DNA of 64,000 nucleotides. Origin: Massilia sp. YIM B02443 (GTDB lineage Bacteria > Pseudomonadota > Gammaproteobacteria > Burkholderiales > Burkholderiaceae_D). Each line of letters starts with the position of its first letter. The stretch's first letter is position 1. Positions 1,096 through 15,323 of this stretch are shown one piece after another. The stretch spans positions 62,001 through 126,000 of the forward strand of contig NZ_JASNRA010000017.1 of assembly GCF_030411955.1 (NCBI RefSeq), read 5' to 3'. Position numbers and translations under genes: made by a program. The notes beneath the pieces were generated by a model. That model made no database searches. It was not told where the DNA came from and was given only the letters and a program-made list of their open reading frames with translations.

Positions 1096-2103
1096 TCAGA
1101 CCAGCCGCACCGACTCGCGCACCACCAGGCTCAGGTCCGGCACCTGTTCCGGCGCCGCTTCATGACCCAGCATTGCCAGCATCCTGCGTCCCACACCGAT
1201 GCCGACCTCGTACAGCGGCTGGCGCACCGTGGTCAGGGGCGGCGTCGTGTACATCGAGCTGTGCAGGTCGTCGAAGCCGACCAGCGAAACGTCTTCCGGC
1301 ACTCGGATATTGCGCCGGTACAGCGCCAGGCGGGCACCGTAGGCGCTCAGGTCGTTGGCCGCAAAGATGGCGGAAAAGCGCAGGTTGGCCTGCAGCAGCG
1401 CATTCACCGCCAGCAGGCCGCTCGATTCGTCGAACTCGCCCGCCACCACCAGCCGCTCGTCGATCGCAATGCCGTGCTTGGCCAGGGTGTCGTGGTAGCC
1501 GGCCAGGCGCGCACGCGCGTCGCGGTGGTCGACCGGACCGCTGATGTGGGCAATGCGGCGGTGGCCCTGGGCGATCAGGTATTCCATCGCCTCGCAGGCG
1601 CCACGGTAATTGTCCAGGCAAAAGCCCTGGGTGCGCTCGCCCTGCACTTCGCGCCCGAAGGCGACGATCGGCACCCGGCGCGAGAAGTCCAGGATCTGCT
1701 GGTCGCTCATATTGCCGGTGAGGATGGCGACGCCGTCGACGCGGCGCCCGATCAGCAGCTCGACCCGCTCCGCCTCTTCGTCCGCATGCCAGTGGCCGCT
1801 CATGATCAGCAGCGCATAGCCGGCGGTCTTGACCGCATCCTCGATGCCGACCATGGCACGGTTGAAGTAGCCGCTCTCGAGCGACTGGGTCAGGACGCCG
1901 ATGGTGCGCGTGCTGCCCATCTTGAGGCTTTGCGCCAGCAGGTTCGGTTTGTAGTTGAGCTCGTCGATGACGCGTTCGATGGCGCGCCGCTTGTCGTCGG
2001 ACACCTTGGCGGTGCCGTTCAGGAAGCGCGACACCGTGGCCGGCGATACCCCGGCCGCGCTGGCGACCTGGTACAGGGTGGTGGTACTGCTCTCGTTTTT
2101 CAT
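1096..2103 (-). CDS. LacI-family transcriptional regulator
   Basis: This 335-aa repressor has a LacI helix-turn-helix at the N-terminus (TLYQVASAAGVSPATVSRFL), a hinge helix near YKPNLLAQSL, and a periplasmic-binding-protein-like sugar domain (from RTIGVLTQSLESGYF to the end). I chose the ATG at 2103 because it gives the usual family length and puts the HTH about ten residues in. A GTG at 2160 would add 19 atypical residues. It is divergent from a glucan-utilisation operon. LacI-type sites lie over that operon's promoter, so it most likely represses the operon until a beta-glucoside or glucose-derived inducer binds. The inducer is not visible from sequence. Confidence 0.93.
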   Translation of the reverse strand: MKNESSTTTLYQVASAAGVSPATVSRFLNGTAKVSDDKRRAIERVIDELNYKPNLLAQSLKMGSTRTIGVLTQSLESGYFNRAMVGIEDAVKTAGYALLIMSGHWHADEEAERVELLIGRRVDGVAILTGNMSDQQILDFSRRVPIVAFGREVQGERTQGFCLDNYRGACEAMEYLIAQGHRRIAHISGPVDHRDARARLAGYHDTLAKHGIAIDERLVVAGEFDESSGLLAVNALLQANLRFSAIFAANDLSAYGARLALYRRNIRVPEDVSLVGFDDLHSSMYTTPPLTTVRQPLYEVGIGVGRRMLAMLGHEAAPEQVPDLSLVVRESVRLV

Positions 2104-2202
2104 GGATCCGGCGGACGTCCTGGACAGGTTCAAGGCAGTTTGTTGCTTGAAGTATATCACGCGTTTTCAGGGCTTCAACCCGCCGTGGATAGGCGTCGAA
2201 GG

Positions 2203-2305: not shown

Positions 2306-2339
2306 GAAACCGTTTTCAAGAATTCTGAAAACGATTTCT
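2305..2339. promoter_or_regulatory. Two tandem LacI-type operators
   Basis: TGAAACCGTTTTCA (2305-2318) and TGAAAACGATTTCT (2326-2339) are both 14-bp LacI-family sites with a central CG. Their centres are 21 bp apart, two helical turns, on the same DNA face. They overlap the -10 and start site of the operon promoter, which fits repression by the neighbouring LacI protein. Confidence 0.65.
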
Positions 2340-2398
2340 TGCCGGATGTATTGTTAGCGCTCGCAATATCAAATAAATCAACAATATCGGAGACAAGC

Positions 2399-4837
2399 AT
2401 GACAAACGCTGCACCCCTCGGCGCTCGCCGCCACGCGCCTATCCACCTTGCCGTCCTGGCCCTGCTGGCCGGCATCGCCGCCGGCGCCCAGGCCCAGTCG
2501 GCATCCGACCCGGCCTCGCCGGCCGCCGCCGTCAACAGCCCCACCACCGTGATCAACCCGGCGGCGAACGCCAACGCCAACGCCAACATCGCCGAGGTGG
2601 TGGTCACCGCCACCAAGCGCTCGACCTCGCTGCAAAAGACCCCGATCGCGGTCACCGCCCTGAACGCCGCCACCCTGGCCGACAACCACGTGCAGACCAT
2701 GCTCGACGTGGTGGCGCTGGTGCCGGGCTTCCAGGCCACCGCCCAGGGCGACCACGGCGTCACCACCATGACCCTGCGCGGCATCGGCAACGACAGCGCC
2801 AAGACCGAATACGCCGATCCCGAAGTCGCCTCGTTCGTCGACAACGTGTACTCGCCGCGCGCCGAAGGCGCCACCGCCCTGATGTTCGACGTCGAGGGCA
2901 TCGAGGTGCTGCGCGGCCCGCAAGGCACGCTGTGGGGCCGCAACTCCACCGTCGGCGCGGTCAACATCCAGACCGTCAAGCCGGAACTGGGCAGCCGCTC
3001 GGGCTACATCGAAGGCGGCATCGGCGACTACAACCGCCTGGGCGCGCGCGGCGCGGTCAACGTGCCGCTGTCGGATAACGCGGCGCTGCGTTTCGCCGTG
3101 GTGCACGAGCGCCATGACGGCTACGTCGACTACCAGAAATTCCAGAACCCGTCGGTCGACTCGCAGCGCGCGGCGTATCTTGCCGCCGGCGGCGACCCGG
3201 CCGCGTTCCGCCCGATCAACCCGAACAACTTCGTCTCGGGCGGCGACAAGTACAGCGCCCAGGACCAGAGCGCGGCGCGCCTGTCGCTGCTGTGGCAACT
3301 GGCGCCGAACGTGCGCTGGAACATCGCCTACGAGAAATTTATTGACCGTGGTACCCCGAGCGCCAACCTGATGCAAACCCCGCGTCCGGGCGAAAAACAC
3401 TGGTCGACCCTGTCGGACACCTCGCCCTGGGTCAACCGCGACAGCCATAACGTGCGCAGCCGCCTGAGCTGGGACATCAGCCCCGACCTGGCGCTGCAGT
3501 ACGTGGCCGGCTGGTCCAAGTTCAGCGGCGACATGCGCTTCGACCAGGACGGCGGCACCATCGTGCCGACCTCGATCATCTCGGGCGGCAAGTTCCAGGA
3601 ACACACCACGGTCGACTCCAACTACAAGAGCCACAGCCACGAGCTGCTGCTGCAATCGGTCGGCACCCGTACCGTCGACTGGCAGGTCGGCGCCTATTAC
3701 GGCAACGAGAAGAACGACATCCGCTTCGACATCGGCGGCATGAACGGCACCGAAGACGGCACCGTGGCCTGGCAGGGTTCGTTCATCCAGCCGAAGCAGA
3801 CCGTGGACACCAGCGCCGTGTTCGGCCAGGCCACGTGGAACATCACCGACCAGTGGCACCTGACCGGCGGCGTGCGCTACACCCACGACAAGCGCGTGCA
3901 CACCGGTGGCCGCGGCTACACCTGGGGCTACGACCCGGCCGCGCCGCAGCTGCCGCTCAATCCGCAGATCGACCCGCTCGACCCGGCCAACGGCTACGTC
4001 GCGGGCGTGCCCAACGACGGCCGCTACAGCGACAACAAGGCCACCGGCCTGGTGCGCCTGAACTACGACATCGACCGCAACAACATGGTCTATGCCAGCG
4101 TCTCGACCGGCTACAAGTCGGGCGGCGTGCAGGATCGCGGCCTGCCGTACAAGCCGGAAACCCTCACCAACTACGAGATCGGCTCGAAGAGCACCTTCCT
4201 GAACGGCGGCCTGCGCATCAACAACGCGCTGTTCTACATGGACTTCAAGGACTTCCAGTTCAATTCGCCGGTCAGCTTCCCGGACGGCAGCCGTGGCCTG
4301 GCCATCGAGAACGCGGACGGCGCCGAAGTCTACGGCCTGGAAACCGAGATCGCCGCGCGCATCGGCGACGGCCGCCTGTCGGTCGCGCTGGCGGTGCTGG
4401 ACACCAAGCTCGGCCACCTGATCGCCGGCTCGAACGACTACGCGCTGCCGCCATGCACGGTCGACACCCGCATCGAGACCTGCCTCGACGTCAGCGGCCA
4501 CAAGCTGCCGCACGCGCCGAAGTTCTCGACCACGGTGCAGTACCAGCACACCTTCCGCCTGGGCGACGGCTCGACGCTGGTCCCGCGCATCACCGCGCGC
4601 TACGAGGATGAAGTGCGCCTGAGCGTGTTCGACCTGGGTCCGGAAGACCGCCAGAAAGCCTACGCCAGCGCCGACCTCGGCCTGCGCTACGCAAAGGACA
4701 AATGGTGGGTCGACGCGTTTGTCCGCAACGTGAGCGACAAGAAGATCAAGACCAGCGCCTTCAACGGCTTCGGTCCGTGGCTGGCGCAGTACAAGCCGCC
4801 GCGCACGGTCGGCATCAACACCGGTTTCGATTTCTGA
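2399..4837 (+). CDS. TonB-dependent receptor, glucan locus
   Basis: This 812-aa outer-membrane receptor probably imports beta-gluco-oligosaccharides. The ATG at 2399 follows GGAGACA. A signal peptide ends near AGAQAQS (residue 33). Next come a short Asn/Ala repeat (56-63) and a TonB-box-like segment AEVVVTATKR (65-74). The plug carries MTLRGIGND and EVLRGPQGTLWGRN. A beta-barrel fills the rest and ends in an aromatic residue (GINTGFDF). It is the first gene after the LacI-controlled promoter and is followed by a strong hairpin terminator before the GH1 gene. That arrangement would make more receptor than enzyme mRNA. Substrate is inferred from the downstream GH1, GH9 and glucokinase genes. 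Confidence 0.92.
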   Translation: MTNAAPLGARRHAPIHLAVLALLAGIAAGAQAQSASDPASPAAAVNSPTTVINPAANANANANIAEVVVTATKRSTSLQKTPIAVTALNAATLADNHVQTMLDVVALVPGFQATAQGDHGVTTMTLRGIGNDSAKTEYADPEVASFVDNVYSPRAEGATALMFDVEGIEVLRGPQGTLWGRNSTVGAVNIQTVKPELGSRSGYIEGGIGDYNRLGARGAVNVPLSDNAALRFAVVHERHDGYVDYQKFQNPSVDSQRAAYLAAGGDPAAFRPINPNNFVSGGDKYSAQDQSAARLSLLWQLAPNVRWNIAYEKFIDRGTPSANLMQTPRPGEKHWSTLSDTSPWVNRDSHNVRSRLSWDISPDLALQYVAGWSKFSGDMRFDQDGGTIVPTSIISGGKFQEHTTVDSNYKSHSHELLLQSVGTRTVDWQVGAYYGNEKNDIRFDIGGMNGTEDGTVAWQGSFIQPKQTVDTSAVFGQATWNITDQWHLTGGVRYTHDKRVHTGGRGYTWGYDPAAPQLPLNPQIDPLDPANGYVAGVPNDGRYSDNKATGLVRLNYDIDRNNMVYASVSTGYKSGGVQDRGLPYKPETLTNYEIGSKSTFLNGGLRINNALFYMDFKDFQFNSPVSFPDGSRGLAIENADGAEVYGLETEIAARIGDGRLSVALAVLDTKLGHLIAGSNDYALPPCTVDTRIETCLDVSGHKLPHAPKFSTTVQYQHTFRLGDGSTLVPRITARYEDEVRLSVFDLGPEDRQKAYASADLGLRYAKDKWWVDAFVRNVSDKKIKTSAFNGFGPWLAQYKPPRTVGINTGFDF

Positions 4838-4927: not shown

Positions 4928-6271
4928 ATGACCAAGAGCGCCCAATTCGATTTCCAGAACGATTTCCCGCATGACTTCACCTGGGGCGTCGCCACCAGTT
5001 CCTTCCAGATCGAAGGCGCCTGGGACGCCGACGGCAAGGGTCCCTCGATCTGGGACACCTTCTGCCTGGACAAGGCCAACATCAAGGACGGCAGCGACGG
5101 CACCGTCGCCTGCGACCATTACCACCGCTACCGCGAAGACGTGGCGCTGATGGCATCGCTGGGCGTGGACGCCTATCGCTTCTCGATGGCCTGGGCGCGC
5201 GTGCAGCCCGACGGCAAGGGCGCCTGGAACGAAGCCGGCTTCGATTTCTACAGCCGCCTGCTCGACGCCCTGGCGGAAAAGAACATCCGCGCCCACATCA
5301 CGCTGTACCACTGGGACCTGCCGCAAGGCCTGCAGGACGACGGCGGCTGGCTCAATCGCGACACCGCCTACCGCTTCGCCGACTACGCACGCGAAGTGGC
5401 GCGCCGCTTCGGCGACCGGGTCGAGGCGATCGCCACCCACAACGAACCGTGGTGCACGGCCAATCTCGGCTACGGCAATGCGCAATTCGCGCCCGGCGTG
5501 CGCGACCTGAAGCAGTCGATCCAGGTGTCGCACCACCTGCTGCTGTCGCACGGCCTGGCCATGACGGCAATGCGCGAAGTCGGCAGCAGCGCCAAGCTCG
5601 GGATCGTTCTGAATCAATGGACGGCAGATGCCGCCACCGATTCGCAGGCAGACCGCGACATGGCCGAATTCGAGTACGCGCGCTCGGTGCAGTGGTTCAT
5701 GGATCCGATCTTCAAGGGCCATTACCCGGAACTGGCGCTGCGCGGCCACGGCGACAATGCGCCCGTCGTTCATGACGGCGACTTCGCCATCATCCAGCAG
5801 AAGATCGATTTCCTCGGCTGTAACTACTACTTCCGCTCGTGGTGCAGCGCCGCCGTGCCGCCAGTGCCGGCGCCGGCGCGCCACGGCGTCACCGACATGG
5901 GCTGGGAGATTTTCCCGGAAGGCTTGCCCGAGCTGCTGCTGAAACTCAAAGCCGAGTATCCCGACCTGCCGCCGGTGTACATTACCGAAAACGGCATGGC
6001 CAATGCCGACACCATCGAGGGCGGGCAGGTGCACGACCCGGAGCGCATCGCCTACGTGCGCAGCCACCTGGCGGCGCTGAAAGAAGCGATGGACGCGGGC
6101 GTGAACGTGCAGGGCTACTTCCTCTGGAGCCTGCTGGACAACTTCGAGTGGAACTCGGGCTACGCCAAGCGCTTCGGCATCGTGCACGTGGACTATGCGA
6201 CCCAGCAGCGCACGCTGAAGGACAGCGCGCTGTGGTACCGCGAATTCATCGCGGCGCGCGCCACCGCCTGA
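4928..6271 (+). CDS. Beta-glucosidase, glycoside hydrolase family 1
   Basis: This 447-aa GH1 enzyme should hydrolyse cellobiose and short beta-glucosides to glucose. The N-terminal GH1 signature FTWGVATSSFQIEGAW is present. The acid/base is Glu173 in THNEP and the nucleophile is Glu354 in YITENG. The C-terminal LLDNFEWNSGYAKRFGIVHVD is also canonical. Length is normal for the family. There is no signal peptide, so it acts in the cytoplasm on sugars already taken up. The glucokinase gene follows by 39 bp, giving a direct route from imported glucoside to glucose 6-phosphate. Confidence 0.96.
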   Translation: MTKSAQFDFQNDFPHDFTWGVATSSFQIEGAWDADGKGPSIWDTFCLDKANIKDGSDGTVACDHYHRYREDVALMASLGVDAYRFSMAWARVQPDGKGAWNEAGFDFYSRLLDALAEKNIRAHITLYHWDLPQGLQDDGGWLNRDTAYRFADYAREVARRFGDRVEAIATHNEPWCTANLGYGNAQFAPGVRDLKQSIQVSHHLLLSHGLAMTAMREVGSSAKLGIVLNQWTADAATDSQADRDMAEFEYARSVQWFMDPIFKGHYPELALRGHGDNAPVVHDGDFAIIQQKIDFLGCNYYFRSWCSAAVPPVPAPARHGVTDMGWEIFPEGLPELLLKLKAEYPDLPPVYITENGMANADTIEGGQVHDPERIAYVRSHLAALKEAMDAGVNVQGYFLWSLLDNFEWNSGYAKRFGIVHVDYATQQRTLKDSALWYREFIAARATA

Positions 6272-6310: not shown

Positions 6311-7360
6311 ATGCAAGCGAATACCCCCCACCCCGGCGGCCCGCGCCTGCTGGCCGACATCGGCGGCACCAATGCGCGCTTCGCGCTGGAGACGGCGCCA
6401 GGTTCCATCGAGGCGGTGCAGACCCTGGCCTGCGCCGACCATCCGCGCTTCGAGGACGCCGTGCGCGCCTACCTGGGCGCCAGCGTGGCCGGTTGCGGCG
6501 GGCAGGTGCGCCATGCGGCGATCGCGATCGCCAATCCGGTCGACGGCGACGAGATCAAGATGACCAACCACCACTGGGCGTTCTCGATCGAAGCGGCGCG
6601 CTACGCGCTGGGCCTGGACACGCTGCTGGTGGTGAACGACTTCACCGCATTGGCGATGTCGCTGCCGGCATTGCAGGACGCCGATCTGGTGCGGGTAGGC
6701 GGCGGCGCCGCCAGGGCCGGCTGCGCGATCGGCCTGGTCGGGGCCGGCACCGGCCTCGGCGTCTCGGGCCTGGTGCCGAGCAACGGGCGCTGGATCCCGC
6801 TGCACAGCGAAGGCGGCCACGTCGCCTTTTCTCCGCTCGACGAACGCGAGGCCGACGTGCTGCGCTTCGCCTGGCAGCGCTTCGACCACGTCTCGGCCGA
6901 ACGCTTCGTCTCCGGTCCCGGCCTGGCGCTGATCCACGAAGCGCTGGCGGATCGCGCCGGCATCGCGCTCGCCAGTGCGCTGGCGCCGTCCGACGTGGTC
7001 GCGCGCGGGCTCGAAGGCGGCGACGCCCTGTGCAAGCAAGCGGTCGACGTCTTCTGCGGCATGCTCGGCACCGTCGCCGCCAACCTCGCCGTCACCCTCG
7101 GCGCGCAGGGCGGCATCTATATCGGCGGCGGCGTGGTGCCGCGCCTGGGCGACTATTTCGCGTCGTCCCCGTTTCGCGAGCGCTTCGAGCGCAAAGGGCG
7201 CCTGAGCGGCTTCACGGCGCGCATCCCGACCTTCCTGATCACGGCCTCCTATCCGGCGCTGCAGGGCGCTTCGCGCTTACTTGCCGACCACTTGGCCGAC
7301 CATCCGGCGCGCCTGCACGCCGTGCCTTCGACCCGGGAGGCGGCCAATGCGTCCATCTAA
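6311..7360 (+). CDS. glk: Glucokinase (Glk family)
   Basis: This 349-aa cytoplasmic enzyme phosphorylates glucose with ATP. The phosphate-binding motif LLADIGGTNARFAL spans residues 13-26. The glucose-binding stretch VVNDFTALAMSLPAL and the GTGLGVSGLVP loop match the Glk family rather than ROK proteins, as does the later SGPGLALIHEAL. The start ATG is preceded by GAGGAGA. The stop overlaps the following permease gene by 14 bp, so translation is coupled. It traps the glucose released by the GH1 enzyme. Confidence 0.93.
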   Translation: MQANTPHPGGPRLLADIGGTNARFALETAPGSIEAVQTLACADHPRFEDAVRAYLGASVAGCGGQVRHAAIAIANPVDGDEIKMTNHHWAFSIEAARYALGLDTLLVVNDFTALAMSLPALQDADLVRVGGGAARAGCAIGLVGAGTGLGVSGLVPSNGRWIPLHSEGGHVAFSPLDEREADVLRFAWQRFDHVSAERFVSGPGLALIHEALADRAGIALASALAPSDVVARGLEGGDALCKQAVDVFCGMLGTVAANLAVTLGAQGGIYIGGGVVPRLGDYFASSPFRERFERKGRLSGFTARIPTFLITASYPALQGASRLLADHLADHPARLHAVPSTREAANASI

Positions 7361-8699
7361 AACCGCTTCGCCTTTGCTGTGGGTGCCGACCGGCTACTTC
7401 ACGATGGCGCTCGGCTACGTGATGCTCACCAGCGTCACCGCCATCATGTTCAAGAACCTGGGCATGGACAACGGCCGCGCGGCGCAGTATTCGAGCCTCC
7501 TGATCCTGGCCTACACGGTCAAGCCACTGTTCGCGCCCTTCGTCGAGATGTACCGCACCAAGAAGTTCTTCGTGCTGTGGGCGCAGATCCTGATCGGCGC
7601 CGGCTTCGCGGGCGTGGCGCTCTTGATGGAGCTGCCCGGCTACATGGCCTTCCTGATGGCGATCTTCTTTGCCTTGAGCTTCATCGGCGCGACGCAGGAC
7701 ATCGCCAGCGACGGCGTGTACGTCACCTCGCTGGATGCGCGCTCGCAGTCGCTGTACTGCGGCATCCAGAGCCTGTCGTGGAACATCGGTCCGATCGTCG
7801 CCGCCGGCGGCATGGTCTACCTGAGCGGTTACCTGCACACCACCGTGTTCGGCCATGACCCGGCCGTGTTCGGGCCGGACTGGATCGACGCCTGGCGCAT
7901 CATCTTCCTGCTGGTCGGCGGATTGACCCTCTTGATGGCGCTGTGGCACTGGCGCTTCATGCCGGAAGGCGCGCGCGCCGCCGATACGCCGTCGAACGTG
8001 AAGGACGCCGGCCGTATCCTGCTCGACGCCTTCGTCACCCTGTTCCAGAAGCGCGGCGTGTGGCGCATGATCGCCTTCGCCTTCCTGTTCCGCTTCAGCG
8101 TCGGGCTGCTGGAAAAGATCGGACCGTTCTTCATGGTCGATCCGGCCTCGAAAGGCGGCCTCGGATTGTCGAACGAGATGCTGGGCCTGATCTACGGCAC
8201 CTATGGACTGGCGGCGGTGCTGCTCGGCTCCCTGCTGGGCGGGTGGTATGTCGCCAGGCGCGGGCTGAAGTCGACCCTGCTGGTGCTGTGCTGCGCGATC
8301 AACATCCCGAACGCCACCTTCCTCATCATGAGCATCGCCATGCCATCGAGCCTGGTGCTGATCACGCTCGGCGTCGCGGTCGAAAAATTCTTCTTCGGCT
8401 TTGGCGCGGTCGGCTTCATGATCTACCTGATGCAGCAGCTGGCGCCCGGCAAGTACACCACCACCCACTACGCCTTCGGCACCGGCCTGATGGGCCTGTG
8501 CGGCATGGTCACCGGCGTGGTCAGCGGCCACCTGCAGGAGATGATGGGCTACGTCAGCTACTTCGTGCTGGTGATGGTGGCGACCATTCCCTCGTTCCTG
8601 GCGACCTGGTTCGCGCCGTTCTACCATGACGATGGCAGCGCGCCGCAACCGGACCAGGATGCCGGCAAGGATGCCGACGGCAAGGCGGTCCCCGCATGA
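7347..8699 (+). CDS. MFS transporter, AmpG-like, probably for beta-glucosides
   Basis: This 450-aa inner-membrane permease has about twelve hydrophobic segments. It resembles the AmpG/SLC33-like branch of the major facilitator superfamily: it starts PLLWVPTGYFTMALGYVML and has GATQDIASDGVYVTSL in the fourth/fifth helix region, where an Asp pair is typical. The ATG at 7347 overlaps the end of glk and has GGGAGG upstream; an earlier in-frame start would add 22 residues without membrane character. The stop overlaps the next start (ATGA). Its place between glucokinase and an endoglucanase suggests it carries oligoglucosides or glucose from periplasm to cytoplasm. Confidence 0.85.
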   Translation: MRPSKTASPLLWVPTGYFTMALGYVMLTSVTAIMFKNLGMDNGRAAQYSSLLILAYTVKPLFAPFVEMYRTKKFFVLWAQILIGAGFAGVALLMELPGYMAFLMAIFFALSFIGATQDIASDGVYVTSLDARSQSLYCGIQSLSWNIGPIVAAGGMVYLSGYLHTTVFGHDPAVFGPDWIDAWRIIFLLVGGLTLLMALWHWRFMPEGARAADTPSNVKDAGRILLDAFVTLFQKRGVWRMIAFAFLFRFSVGLLEKIGPFFMVDPASKGGLGLSNEMLGLIYGTYGLAAVLLGSLLGGWYVARRGLKSTLLVLCCAINIPNATFLIMSIAMPSSLVLITLGVAVEKFFFGFGAVGFMIYLMQQLAPGKYTTTHYAFGTGLMGLCGMVTGVVSGHLQEMMGYVSYFVLVMVATIPSFLATWFAPFYHDDGSAPQPDQDAGKDADGKAVPA

Positions 8700-10879
8700 G
8701 GCGCCTGTCGATTCCATTATTGTTCCTCGCTGCCGGCACGGCCGCCGCGCAAAGCAGCACCATCAAGCTCAATCAGGTCGGCTTTCTGCCGCAGGCGCAC
8801 AAGCTGGCCGTGGTGCCGCAGGGCGCCAGCGGCACCCGCTTCGAGGTGGTCGGCGCCGACGGCAAGACCGTGTTCGAAGGCGCGCTCGGGGCGCCGGGAC
8901 GCTGGGAGCCGTCCGGCGAAACCGTGCGCGTGGCCGACTTCAGCGCGCTGGCGCAGCCGGGCACCTATCGTTTGAAAGTCGCCGGTCTGGCGCTGTCCGA
9001 TCCGTTCGCGATCAAGCCTGACGCCTACCGCGCGCTGGGCGACGCCGCGCTCAAGGCATATTACTTCAACCGCAGCGGCATCGGCATCGACGCCAGATAC
9101 GGCGGCGCCTGGGCGCGTGCGGCCGGCCACCCGGACGACAAGGTGCTGGTGCACGTTTCCGCCGCCTCGCGCGCGCGGCCACAGGGCACGGTCATTGCCA
9201 GCCCCAAAGGCTGGTACGACGCCGGCGACTACAACAAATACGTGGTCAATTCCGGCATCTCGACCTACACCCTGCTGGCCGCGTTCGAGCACTATCCGGG
9301 CGCCTTCAAGCACGACGTCGGCATTCCCGAATCCGGCAACGGCGTGCCTGACATCCTCGACGAGGCGCTGTGGAATCTCGAGTGGATGCTGACCATGCAG
9401 GATCCGAACGACGGCGGCGTGTACCACAAGCTGACCAACCTGCGCTTCGACGGCACCGTCATGCCGCACGAGGCCAACCGCACGCCACGCTACGTGGTGG
9501 CCAAGAGCACGGCGGCGGCGCTCGACTTCGCCGCCACCATGGCCGCCGCCGGCCGCGTGCTGGCGCCGTACGAGAAACAGTGGCCCGGCATGGCGGCGCG
9601 CATGCTGGCGGCAGCCGAAGGCGCGTGGCGCTGGGCCGAGGCCAATCCGAAGGCGGTGTTCAAGAATCCGGCCGACGTCAAGACCGGCGAGTATGGCGAC
9701 GACCAACTGGACGACGAATTCTTCTGGGCCGCCGCCGAACTGTTCATCGCCACCGGCAAGGATGCGTATTCCCAAGCCCTGCGCAAGTACGATGCGCCAT
9801 TGACGACGCCATCCTGGGGCAATGTACGCGCGCTGGGCTGGATTTCATTAGCGCAGGCGCGCGAGCGCCTGGCGCCGTCGTTCGACCGCGCCCGGATCGA
9901 GGCGCGCCTGGACGGCCTGGCCGCGCAACTCGCCGAGACGTCACGCAACGCCGGCTACCGCGTGCCGATGGCGAGCAAGGACTTTGTCTGGGGCAGCAAC
10001 GCCATGATCCTGAACCAGGCCATGATGCTGCTGCAGGCCTATCGCCTCAACCGCAAGCCGGACTACCTGGCGGCGGCGCAGTCGGGCCTCGACTACGTGT
10101 TGGGCCGCAACGCCACCGGCTACGCGTTCGTGACCGGCATCGGCGCGCGTCCCTTCCTGCATCCGCACCACCGGCCGTCGATGGCCGACGGCGTCGCCGC
10201 GCCGGTGCCGGGCTGGCTGGCGGGCGGGCCGAATCCGGGCCAGCAGGACAAGAAGGATTGCCCGGCGCCGTATCCAAGTACGCGCCCCGCGCTCTCTTAC
10301 ATCGACCACGATTGCAGCTACGCCGCCAACGAGGTCGCCATCAACTGGAACGCGCCGCTGGTGTACGTCACGGCGGCGCTGTCCACCCTCACGCCCCGCC
10401 CCATGGACAAAGACCTGGTTGCGCTGGACCTGCTGGCGCGCGAAGAGCAGCAGCTGCAATTTGAACGCTTCGACCAATCCATCGCCGATGCGATCGGCGC
10501 GAAGATCGTCGAGCGCGCGCGTAACAAGCGCCAGACCGTGACGGTGCAGATCAAACAGGGCGAGACGGTGCTGTTCACCCAAGCGATGCCGGGCGCCTCG
10601 CCCGACCACCTGGACTGGATCCGGCGCAAGAACAATCTGGTCAAGCGCACCGGCCACAGCTCGTTCTACACCCACAACGAAGTGCGCCAGGGCGGCGGCG
10701 ACCACGACGCCCTGCCCGGCCTGGACATGCGCGACTACGCGGCCCACGGCGGCGCCTTCCCCGTGGTGGTGCGCGGCCAGGGCCTGGTCGGCACCGTCAC
10801 CGTCTCGGGCCTGCCGGGGGCGGACGACCACGCCCTGGCGGTGGCCGGCGTGAAGGATTACCTGGGAGTGCAGCCATGA
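8696..10879 (+). CDS. GH9 endoglucanase fused to a UPF0303 (HbpS/GlcG-like) domain
   Basis: The product is 727 aa with a signal peptide ending near TAAAQS. Residues 20-105 form the Ig-like CelD_N domain (IKLNQVGFLP). Residues 110-565 are a GH9 catalytic domain with the DAGD motif (Asp175/Asp178), HHRPS, and the acid Glu546 in NEVAINWNAP. From Met570 the reading frame continues as a complete 158-aa UPF0303 protein: LDLLAREEQQLQFERF, DWIRRKNNLVKR, DYAAHGGAFPV and GTVTVSGLPGADDHALAV. UPF0303 proteins are normally separate and cytosolic. Here only about a dozen bases separate the modules, with no ribosome site before ATG 10403. Start and stop overlap both neighbours (ATGA), so this is an integral operon member. 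The fusion is either real or a stop-loss error. Confidence 0.88.
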   Translation: MRRLSIPLLFLAAGTAAAQSSTIKLNQVGFLPQAHKLAVVPQGASGTRFEVVGADGKTVFEGALGAPGRWEPSGETVRVADFSALAQPGTYRLKVAGLALSDPFAIKPDAYRALGDAALKAYYFNRSGIGIDARYGGAWARAAGHPDDKVLVHVSAASRARPQGTVIASPKGWYDAGDYNKYVVNSGISTYTLLAAFEHYPGAFKHDVGIPESGNGVPDILDEALWNLEWMLTMQDPNDGGVYHKLTNLRFDGTVMPHEANRTPRYVVAKSTAAALDFAATMAAAGRVLAPYEKQWPGMAARMLAAAEGAWRWAEANPKAVFKNPADVKTGEYGDDQLDDEFFWAAAELFIATGKDAYSQALRKYDAPLTTPSWGNVRALGWISLAQARERLAPSFDRARIEARLDGLAAQLAETSRNAGYRVPMASKDFVWGSNAMILNQAMMLLQAYRLNRKPDYLAAAQSGLDYVLGRNATGYAFVTGIGARPFLHPHHRPSMADGVAAPVPGWLAGGPNPGQQDKKDCPAPYPSTRPALSYIDHDCSYAANEVAINWNAPLVYVTAALSTLTPRPMDKDLVALDLLAREEQQLQFERFDQSIADAIGAKIVERARNKRQTVTVQIKQGETVLFTQAMPGASPDHLDWIRRKNNLVKRTGHSSFYTHNEVRQGGGDHDALPGLDMRDYAAHGGAFPVVVRGQGLVGTVTVSGLPGADDHALAVAGVKDYLGVQP

Positions 10880-11861
10880 GCGCCGCGATGGGGAACAACC
10901 GTACCATCCGCTGGGGCATCCTCGGCACCGGCCGCATCGCGCGCGACTTCGCGGCCGGCCTGCGCGACACGCCGGATGCGGTGCTGGCGGCGGTCGGCTC
11001 GCGCACGCAGGCCAGCGCGCAAGCCTTTGCCGACGATGTCGGCGCGCCGGCCGCCTACGGCTCGTACGAAGAGCTGGCGCAGGCGAACGACGTCGACATC
11101 ATCTACATCGCCACCCCGCACACCCTGCACGCCGAGAACGCCATCCTGGCGCTACGCGGCGGCAAGGCGGTACTGTGCGAGAAGCCGTTCGCCCTCAACC
11201 GGCGCGAAGCCGGCGAAGTGGTGGCGCTGGCGCGCGCCAAGAACCTGTTCCTGATGGAGGCGATGTGGACCCGCTTCATGCCGGCGCTCAGTGAAGTCAA
11301 GCGCATCATCGCCAGCGGCGAGATCGGCAGCGTGACCCAGGTGCACGCCGACTTCGGCTTCGCCGCCACCCATGACCCCGAACACCGCGTCAACAATCTG
11401 GCGCTGGGCGGCGGCGCGCTGCTCGACCTGGGCATCTATCCGCTGTCGATCGCCTGCGCCCTGCTGGGCAAGGTCGAATCGGTGCAGGCCCAGGCCATCA
11501 TGGGGGAGACCGGGGTCGATCTCACCACCGCCTTCACCATGAAGCACGCCGGCGGCACGCTGTCGATCTGCAGCTGCTCGCTGCGCGCACGGGCGCCGGG
11601 CGAACTGACGGTGTCGGGCACGCGCGGCAGCGTGCGCATGGAGCGCATGTTCCACATGGCCGAACGGGTCACGGTGGATGTGCTGGACGGGCCGTCGCGC
11701 ACGATCGAAACACCATGGCTGGGCAACGGCTACACCCACGAGGCGATCGCCGCCGGCCAGTGCCTGCGCGACGGCATGCTCGAGCATCCGGACATGCCGC
11801 TCGACGAGACCCTGGCCCTGATGGGCGTGTTGGACACCATCCGGCGCCAGATCGGCCTGCG

Positions 11862-11880
<19 letters not shown>
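10876..11880 (+). CDS. Gfo/Idh/MocA-family NAD(P)-dependent oxidoreductase
   Basis: This 334-aa cytoplasmic dehydrogenase has an N-terminal Rossmann fold (GILGTGRIA, residues 14-22) and the family signature CEKPFALN with Glu102-Lys103-Pro104. The C-terminal half carries the substrate domain, with GGGALLDLGIYPLSIA typical of the dihydrodiol/D-xylose dehydrogenase-like branch. The ATG overlaps the stop of the GH9 gene. It is the last gene of the glucan operon and probably oxidises or reduces a sugar derived from it. The exact substrate cannot be read from sequence. Its 3' end overlaps the convergent kinase gene by 19 bp. Confidence 0.88.
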
Positions 11881-13874
<1,994 letters not shown>

Positions 13875-13985: not shown

Positions 13986-15146
13986 TCAGGGCGGCAATCC
14001 GTGCCGGTACCATCCGTATTCCCACCGCCACGGCATGTCGTTCGGGCCCAGCGCCAGGCGCGCGATGTCGGGGAAGATGCGCTCGGCGCGCACGTCGTTG
14101 GCCAGCATGACCAGGCAGCGCCGGCGCGCCTCCAGGCAGATCACCATATTGCCGGTGCTGTCGTTGTGGCCGCCCTTGAACCAGGCCGGCCCGCTGCGGT
14201 CGCGGAAGGTGACCATGCCCAGGCCCGCCGCCAGCCCGGGCACCGGCGCCGCAGTGTCGACTGCCAGCGTGGGGAACTGGCTGGCCGAGCGGATCGGCAG
14301 CTGCGCGCGCAGCATCTCGGCGCGCATCGCCGCGCCCAGCACCGCGCCGCGCTGCAGCGCCGCCCACAGGCGCGCCTGGTCGGCGATGCTGGTGTCCATC
14401 GAGCCGGCCGCCACCGGGCTGCCGCGCTCATCGTGCGGCTCCATGCGGCCCTCGGTCGTATAGCCGTCGGCCAGGTTGGCGGCAAAATCGGGGCGCCACT
14501 GCATGCCCGTATCCGGCATGCCGACGCGGTCGAACACCCGCTCCTGCATCGCGCGCCCGAGCTCCAGCCCCAGGCCCTCTTCGACGATCAGCTGCAGCAC
14601 ATAGAAGCCCTCGGCCGAGTAAGCGTAGCGGCTGCCGGGCGTGAAATGAAAGCGCAGCCGCCCGTCCGGTTCGAGCCAGCGGAAGTTGGCGAAGCCGGCG
14701 GCGTGGATGAGCAGGATGCGCGGCGTGAGCAGGCGCCAGCGATCGTCGCCGGCCAGCTGGCGGAAGTCGAAGCGGCCATCGCCGCGCGCCAGCGCGTATT
14801 CCGGCAGCGGCTTGGGCAGCAGCGTCGCGACCGGGGCGTCGAGATCGAGCTTTCCTTCCTGCGCCAGCTGCAGCACCGGCAGCGCGAACACGGTCTTGGT
14901 CAGCGAGGCGCCGTACATCACGGTGTCGGTGCGCAGCGGCAGGCGGCGCCCGGCGTTGCGCCAGCCGTAGGCGGCCTGCTTGAGCACGCGGCCGTCGTCG
15001 ACCAGCGCCAGCGCCAGTCCCTGCACGCCTTCGCGCGCCATCAGGCGCTCGATGTCGGCATCGACCCAGCCGGGATCGGCGCCACCGGGCGGCGTGGCGC
15101 AGGACCCGAGGCACAGCAGCAGGACGACCGCGAACAGCGCTTTCAT
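13986..15146 (-). CDS. Serine hydrolase, class C beta-lactamase-like, lipoprotein
   Basis: This 386-aa envelope hydrolase has a lipobox LGSC (Cys16) after a hydrophobic N-terminus. The catalytic SxxK is Ser81-Leu-Thr-Lys84 in YGASLTK, a YS-type second motif occurs in RYAYSAEGFYVLQ, and the third motif is replaced by KGGHNDSTGN. This is the beta-lactamase/D-aminopeptidase/esterase superfamily (Pfam Beta-lactamase). Most such members are esterases or peptidases rather than resistance enzymes. I chose the ATG at 15146 because AAGGTGA precedes it and it begins the signal peptide directly. Confidence 0.85.
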   Translation of the reverse strand: MKALFAVVLLLCLGSCATPPGGADPGWVDADIERLMAREGVQGLALALVDDGRVLKQAAYGWRNAGRRLPLRTDTVMYGASLTKTVFALPVLQLAQEGKLDLDAPVATLLPKPLPEYALARGDGRFDFRQLAGDDRWRLLTPRILLIHAAGFANFRWLEPDGRLRFHFTPGSRYAYSAEGFYVLQLIVEEGLGLELGRAMQERVFDRVGMPDTGMQWRPDFAANLADGYTTEGRMEPHDERGSPVAAGSMDTSIADQARLWAALQRGAVLGAAMRAEMLRAQLPIRSASQFPTLAVDTAAPVPGLAAGLGMVTFRDRSGPAWFKGGHNDSTGNMVICLEARRRCLVMLANDVRAERIFPDIARLALGPNDMPWRWEYGWYRHGLPP

Positions 15147-15323
15147 GGTGTCACCTTCAAGATGCCTGTATTGACAGCGAACCATCGAAGTGTAGCGCGC
15201 AGCCCGGCAGCAGGCAATCGGCGCTGCCTTGACGCTGCTTTACCCGGCTTTACATTTGCCGCCCTGTTGGCGCGCTCATGCCAGGCCGTTAATGAAAGAC
15301 GATCAGCTCAACAAGGTATGAAC

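Follow-up and report, generated by a model that had tools for sequence, protein, structure and literature searches.

Does a gene that joins a cellulase to a complete UPF0303/HbpS protein make one product or two? This question is raised by a 727-codon gene at 8696-10879 in a 64,000-nucleotide stretch of DNA from Massilia sp. YIM B02443 (contig NZ_JASNRA010000017.1, positions 62,001 to 126,000), which was analysed as a whole, is called the window below and supplies all unmarked coordinates. Our analysis favours, with a rough probability of 0.68, the reading that the one gene gives rise both to an exported fusion of GH9 with HbpS and to a free HbpS in the cytosol, the latter of which would be started at an ATG inside the frame. 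In the following list of the parts of the gene, pLDDT is the predicted local distance difference test score of the structure model.

8696..10879, forward strand: fused gene with a signal-peptide-like start, CelD_N, GH9 and UPF0303/HbpS, 727 residues, the proposed long product (open frame; Pfam and NCBIfam profile matches)
8696..8752, forward strand: signal-peptide-like N-terminus with a charged start, then a hydrophobic stretch and AAAQ (by eye)
8750..8989, forward strand: CelD_N immunoglobulin-like (Ig-like) domain, residues 19-98 (Pfam PF02927, 79.5 bits)
9026..10369, forward strand: GH9 catalytic domain, residues 111-558 (Pfam PF00759)
10391..10423, forward strand: variable linker, residues 566-576 (change counts per column; low pLDDT at 570-572)
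10403..10405, forward strand: internal in-frame ATG, Met570, proposed second start codon (conserved across fused proteins and DNA loci)
10403..10879, forward strand: proposed short product, a complete UPF0303/HbpS protein of 158 residues without a signal peptide (NCBIfam NF002696; model pLDDT 93)

The frame is single and uninterrupted over its whole length. The PF00759 match scored 297 bits against a cut-off of 27.7 and covered profile positions 1-443 of 444; D175 and D178 of the DAGD motif and Glu546, which we take to be the GH9 catalytic aspartates and C-terminal glutamate, were unchanged across a 56-row alignment of fused proteins, and glucan hydrolysis is the putative activity assigned to this half. 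The HbpS-like (DUF336) profile PF03928 matched residues 592-719 with 96.6 bits (cut-off 25), and the UPF0303-type profile NF002696 gave 165 bits for the HbpS domain alone and 160 bits for the whole protein (cut-off 146). Two further PF03928 proteins are encoded in the window genome, and the UPF0303-type query matched the fused one only. The N-terminus was modelled with a pLDDT <50 at residues 1-5 and 7-18; inspection by eye revealed no twin-arginine translocation (Tat) box of the generally known form in the fused proteins, and the RR of the window protein is KR in the 56-protein consensus. At both ends the gene shares an ATGA overlap with a neighbour, an MFS gene at 8696-8699 and a Gfo/Idh/MocA gene at 10876-10879. 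A preliminary description made from the sequence of the window had listed the uninterrupted frame, the signal peptide, the Ig-like and complete GH9 domains, the full-length UPF0303 protein from Met570 and the overlapping gene ends, all of which were confirmed, the signal peptide by eye; its expectation that the HbpS domain should be exported with the cellulase agrees with the N-terminal signal seen by eye.

The same join was found well beyond the window. With a full-length join defined as a match row running from residue ~7 or less to at least 723 with no stop, a whole-genome search detected it in 17 of 62 genomes of the genus, and a family-wide draw of 294 genomes yielded four more outside the genus (G176, G246, G242 and G320; groups g36 and g64). 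Named records with the join include Massilia aurea, M. niastensis and several Duganella (80 of 85 loci kept). When query residues 540-727 were searched against 5.8 billion proteins, 230 matches were obtained, and GH9 and HbpS-like domains occurred together in all of the best 120, among them the protein of the window itself; a length limit on candidates put stand-alone HbpS proteins outside the reach of this search. Public records name the fused relatives, where they name them, "endoglucanase", "heme-degrading domain-containing protein" or similar. At the DNA level, 24 distinct fused loci were collected, one of which (L125) has a frameshift within GH9, and in every fused locus displayed at the join the ATG was present, with the linker before it and the residues after it differing. 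In a GH9 tree of 113 tips, all GH9 genes with hbpS beside or behind them formed one 32-tip clade (support 0.987), including three tips without an HbpS match in the DNA examined. This tree does not resolve the order of fusion and split inside the clade; L012, which has separate genes, is nested among fused loci (support 0.999), indicating at least one later split. The new domain architecture proposed in the preliminary description, whose reality it had tied to relatives sharing the join, is therefore real and conserved.

The Met encoded by the internal ATG was present between the GH9 end and the first HbpS helix in 118 of 120 fused proteins (the best 120 of 230), standing 11-17 residues ahead of that helix, and in 84 of 86 distinct linkers, or 85 of 87 when another linker end was used. 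Exactly one in-frame ATG per linker was found in each of the 24 fused DNA loci. In a 117-tip tree built without the linker, from which three short proteins of the 120 were omitted and in which the two proteins lacking the Met were given a fixed offset, the Met column changed twice, as opposed to 14-42 times at the remaining columns between -8 and +10; the length of the linker before the Met changed 21 times. When the same tree was used with columns anchored on the HbpS helix and the Met unused, columns 6-20 changed 19-37 times. Within the window's 62-tip subclade, no change of the Met was observed against 3-17 changes at neighbouring columns. The linker was modelled at low confidence (pLDDT <50 at residues 570-572), suggesting that a structural need for a Met at this point is unlikely. 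Judging from linker conservation and tree counts, the putative internal start codon is kept by selection.

Translation signals at the internal ATG were assessed by local RNA folding (window -20 to +20) and by the anti-Shine-Dalgarno (anti-SD) duplex, an SD being called strong at -5 kcal/mol or stronger. Over the 24 fused loci, the RNA at the internal ATG had a mean folding energy of -3.1 kcal/mol, as opposed to a gene mean of -11.6 kcal/mol. Each site was recoded synonymously so that protein composition could not bias openness; openness was above the mean synonymous recoding in 22 of 24 loci (mean z 1.60), compared with a z of -0.27 for 96 control Met codons. A strong SD preceded the internal ATG in 8 of 24 loci versus 32 of 362 control Mets (approximate Fisher p 0.0014), the eight including four of four Duganella loci (L035, L036, L037 and L065). 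An SD was absent from seven loci of the window's own lineage (L001, L002, L003, L031, L038, L111 and L113). Other starts of the same operon, which are approximate since they were picked as the nearest ATG, were compared after six MFS start rows that look mis-chosen had been left out. The GH1 starts were open (mean fold -1.2) with a strong SD in 0 of 24, indicating that an open start without an SD is usable in this operon; a strong SD was present in 16 of 21 Gfo starts (mean fold -5.8) and in 15 of 21 GH9 starts, the latter being structured (mean fold -14.6).

Relatives with other arrangements carry HbpS in separate, signal-bearing and Met-started forms. In L039, L040, L162 and L163, GH9 overlaps by 4 bases with a separate, signal-less HbpS that starts about two codons upstream of the Met position, and in L174 the GH9 TAA lies inside AAGGAG and hbpS follows from the homologous Met. 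L012 and L124 represent a later split into separate genes; in L124 (G018) the HbpS frame after the split is just 128 residues long and looks C-terminally truncated. Close relatives with two separate genes, which the preliminary description had held to count against the fusion, were thus found, but beside many fused species. In four further relatives (L121, L122, L123 and L126) the operon is the same but lacks GH9, and a signal peptide is joined directly and in frame to HbpS, the Met being kept, which favours an exported form; these are natural variants that leave an exported-type HbpS. L123 is arranged like L110 of M. arenae, and no SD was found at the Met in L121-L123. Five solo HbpS copies of group g30 (L156-L160) start at the Met. 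In L125 (G077), HbpS is intact and GH9 and glucokinase are both frameshifted, the frameshifts being probably assembly errors and possibly decay; since its glucokinase is also broken, L125 was not used as evidence of GH9 loss, and it was retained among the 24 loci.

A similar layout was seen by eye in dispersed HbpS genes, where 10 of 12 loci (L127-L138) showed a signal-peptide-like leader, then a linker, then the Met. AGGA precedes the Met in 8 of these 10 signal-peptide loci (L127-L133, L135, L136 and L138). The other two, L134 and L137, have no signal peptide and carry AGGA ahead of the Met; no stop immediately closes the frame upstream, although their HbpS most simply starts at the conserved Met. 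Among the best 120 of 316 matches in a protein search for relatives, the Met was present in 116 of 116 that could be anchored, and the four that missed the anchor all show it by eye; all 83 distinct N-termini of this family among the matches listed have a Gly (GGA of AGGA) at the third residue ahead of the Met. The openness z averaged 1.26 over 14 signal-peptide HbpS loci, with values close to zero for L135, L136 and L138. The dispersed UPF0303 genes that combine a leader and an internal Met are possibly dual-start genes as well. Four of their neighbourhoods were read and showed no common theme. In one of the four, L166 (5285-6966), an exported HbpS lies beside a gene that looks by eye like a flavin mononucleotide (FMN) alpha-hydroxy-acid oxidase, which recalls GlcG; GlcG of E. 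coli reportedly sits in the glycolate operon. Together, these relatives show that HbpS occurs in nature in exported and cytosolic forms, and the fused lineages appear to retain the means for both.

Several observations weigh against an internal start. Two of the 120 fused proteins (P0112 and P0118) lack the Met, and counting from the Met inflates the change counts of the neighbouring columns. The start of the HbpS helix is conserved too, with one Leu, five residues before the helix, showing 0 changes; by its position this residue is probably part of the HbpS fold. In the window itself the internal ATG is ordinary in openness, 13% of recodings being equally open, and has no SD (anti-SD duplex +1.9 kcal/mol), in line with the preliminary description, which had seen no ribosome site at the join. 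The mean SD energy over the 24 loci was no different from that of control Mets (p 0.21), which rules out an SD as the sole signal of the internal start, and the relatedness of the loci by descent makes all p-values rough. The structured start of GH9 itself implies that openness is no required mark of a start here. In the dispersed family, other nearby residues are invariant as well, so that the Met is weaker evidence there. Finally, the exported HbpS of L166-L168 lacks the Met, and the g36 relatives whose genes are separate carry signal-less HbpS only, suggesting that neither form is needed everywhere.

Three other explanations were considered. HbpS could be an accessory domain of the cellulase, serving oligomerisation or ligand binding, with the Met as a relic of a separate gene; the lack of a stop in frame, the absence of an SD before Met570, the signal peptide kept in the four GH9-less relatives and the exported-only HbpS of L166-L168 would all fit a fusion of this kind. 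A relic Met would, however, decay like its neighbours, and the tree counts (2 changes versus 14-42, and 0 versus 3-17 in the window's subclade), the synonymous choice that holds the RNA open in 22 of 24 loci and the SD of some lineages argue otherwise, so that we consider a fusion alone rather unlikely. Conversely, HbpS could work only in the cytosol from the internal start, the join being a tolerated by-product of a lost GH9 stop, as the separate signal-less HbpS of the sister lineages L039, L040, L162, L163 and L174 might suggest; L125, with its HbpS and HbpS start intact behind a frameshifted GH9, points the same way, although its broken glucokinase makes assembly errors likely there. We judge this quite improbable, as the frame survives 21 changes of linker length, a signal peptide is in frame with HbpS in the four GH9-less operons and a dispersed family of signal-peptide HbpS exists. 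A stop lost between two ordinary genes of the window genome by a sequencing error or misassembly, for which the separate genes of some relatives could be cited, is ruled out for practical purposes, since the join recurs across many independent genomes and contigs. Thus, the preliminary description was right that the join is real; it had taken Met570 as a mere domain border, whereas the conserved Met points to a second, free HbpS.

Starting from the observed frame, the conserved join and Met, the open RNA and the separate, signal-only and Met-started HbpS of relatives, we infer the making of two proteins, their locations, their assembly and a ligand of HbpS as follows. Ribosomes starting at 8696 would produce an exported pre-protein with CelD_N, GH9 and a C-terminal UPF0303/HbpS, as its N-terminus suggests. 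In this long product HbpS would be an oligomer-forming scaffold and a ligand site for GH9, and because related DUF336 proteins are oligomeric, exported copies may come together in a particle that bears several GH9 enzymes. Ribosomes starting at the ATG at 10403 would produce the bare 158-residue HbpS, which has no signal and would stay in the cytosol beside the GH1, glucokinase and Gfo/Idh/MocA enzymes, and the same ligand-binding module would then be on both sides of the inner membrane. A more speculative extension, against which we would wager, is that one gene makes two matched, identical HbpS rings. One, exported and bearing GH9, would encounter fragments of glucan outside the cytosol, and the other would lie free in the cytosol beside the sugar oxidoreductase. 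Both would bind the same small ligand arising in the course of beta-glucan use, which would be handled or read on both sides of the inner membrane, and internal starts would keep this arrangement in Massilia and relatives with or without the cellulase.

The gene content around the fused gene suggests a beta-glucan or cello-oligosaccharide operon, with the following neighbours.

1096..2160, reverse strand: LacI-type regulator, divergent
2339..4837, forward strand: TonB-dependent receptor, start uncertain; near the operon in 26 of 32 related loci
4928..6271, forward strand: GH1 beta-glucosidase, same gene run
6311..7360, forward strand: glucokinase, same gene run
7281..8699, forward strand: MFS transporter gene, start uncertain; ATGA overlap with the fused gene
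10876..11880, forward strand: Gfo/Idh/MocA oxidoreductase gene; ATGA overlap with the fused gene
11862-13874, reverse strand: hybrid histidine kinase, convergent with the operon
13986-15185, reverse strand: serine beta-lactamase-type hydrolase, beside the kinase; near the operon in 6 of 32 related loci

GH1 and MFS genes were present in 29 of the 32 related loci, and the glucokinase and Gfo genes were missing in some. A Streptomyces-like HbpS-SenS system was considered because of the kinase at 11862-13874 and gained little support, the hybrid kinase being near the operon in 5 of 32 loci, a count taken over downstream DNA of varying extent and for a partner that need not adjoin.

No description of a GH9-HbpS fusion, or of an internal start in one, was found in the literature searched, in which subscription journals are thinly covered; what it offered on dual localisation through internal starts was general background. 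As far as the available text of the sources goes, internal in-frame starts (PMC9094748) and DUF336 fusions (PduO) are already known, and this pairing appears to be new. If the two-product reading is true, the cellulase gene encodes a second, cytosolic protein that would escape ordinary annotation, in a host group, Massilia-type soil bacteria, with this gene design. To our knowledge, most UPF0303/DUF336 proteins have no known role; the fused gene would provide a genetic handle on them, since a stop in the linker should abolish the exported form alone and a change of the start codon the cytosolic form alone. A conserved Met in a variable linker together with locally open RNA is also suggested as a sequence test for hidden internal starts at domain joins.

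The nearest solved structure to the GH9 half is BoGH9A (PDB 6dht), both by sequence (E 4.7e-147) and as the top fold match. The domain order CelD_N-GH9 is shared with the BoGH9A endoglucanase and other CelD_N-GH9 enzymes, but the aligned BoGH9A chain stops with GH9 (569 residues) and shows no HbpS domain. For the HbpS half, the closest solved relative in both sequence and fold is yeast Ybr137w (UPF0303, PDB 4clc), whose solved chain carries no fused enzyme, unlike the window protein. The HbpS model matched the folds of 4clc, 4nkp, 6bws, 2a2l, 3fpv, 5cx7 and 9jth (all E <1e-5), and the DUF336 fold is common to the HbpS half, HbpS, PduOC and EfgA. In the available parts of the literature, Ybr137w is a fungal decamer tied to tail-anchored protein targeting (PMC4923194 and PMC8153426), HbpS and PduOC are octamers, and DUF336 proteins bind haem or cobalamin (HbpS and PduO) or sense formaldehyde (EfgA), some of them belonging to operons or compartments in which aldehydes are formed (PMC8153426, PMC4923194 and PMC3754957). 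The link from redox or haem chemistry to glucan cleavage raised in the preliminary description gained no direct support: the domain is nearest to Ybr137w, for which the text available from PMC4923194 states that evidence of haem binding is lacking. Its statement that UPF0303/HbpS proteins are mostly cytosolic also needs qualifying: Streptomyces reticuli HbpS is described as Tat-secreted in the accessible part of PMC3754957, and 10 of the 12 dispersed loci have a signal-peptide-like leader. S. reticuli HbpS (PDB 3fpv) shares the DUF336 fold with the fused HbpS domain and is secreted, as is predicted for the long product, but it is exported alone by Tat as an octamer, is linked to haem and iron, and is 20-22% identical in the fold alignment. 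In Salmonella PduO (PDB 5cx7), as in the window fusion, an enzyme encoded in a catabolic operon carries a DUF336 domain at its C-terminal end (PMC4923194, available part); PduO differs as an intracellular adenosyltransferase without export, for which that text mentions no second start. The closest likeness in start usage is to the in-frame internal-start isoforms detected by Ribo-RET in M. tuberculosis (PMC9094748) and E. coli (Meydan 2019, cited there), as the available text describes them: one gene, two starts and a shared stop, as proposed for the fused gene. The fused gene, known here by comparison and not by profiling, would differ from these isoforms in that its two products serve two compartments and the shorter one drops a whole enzyme.

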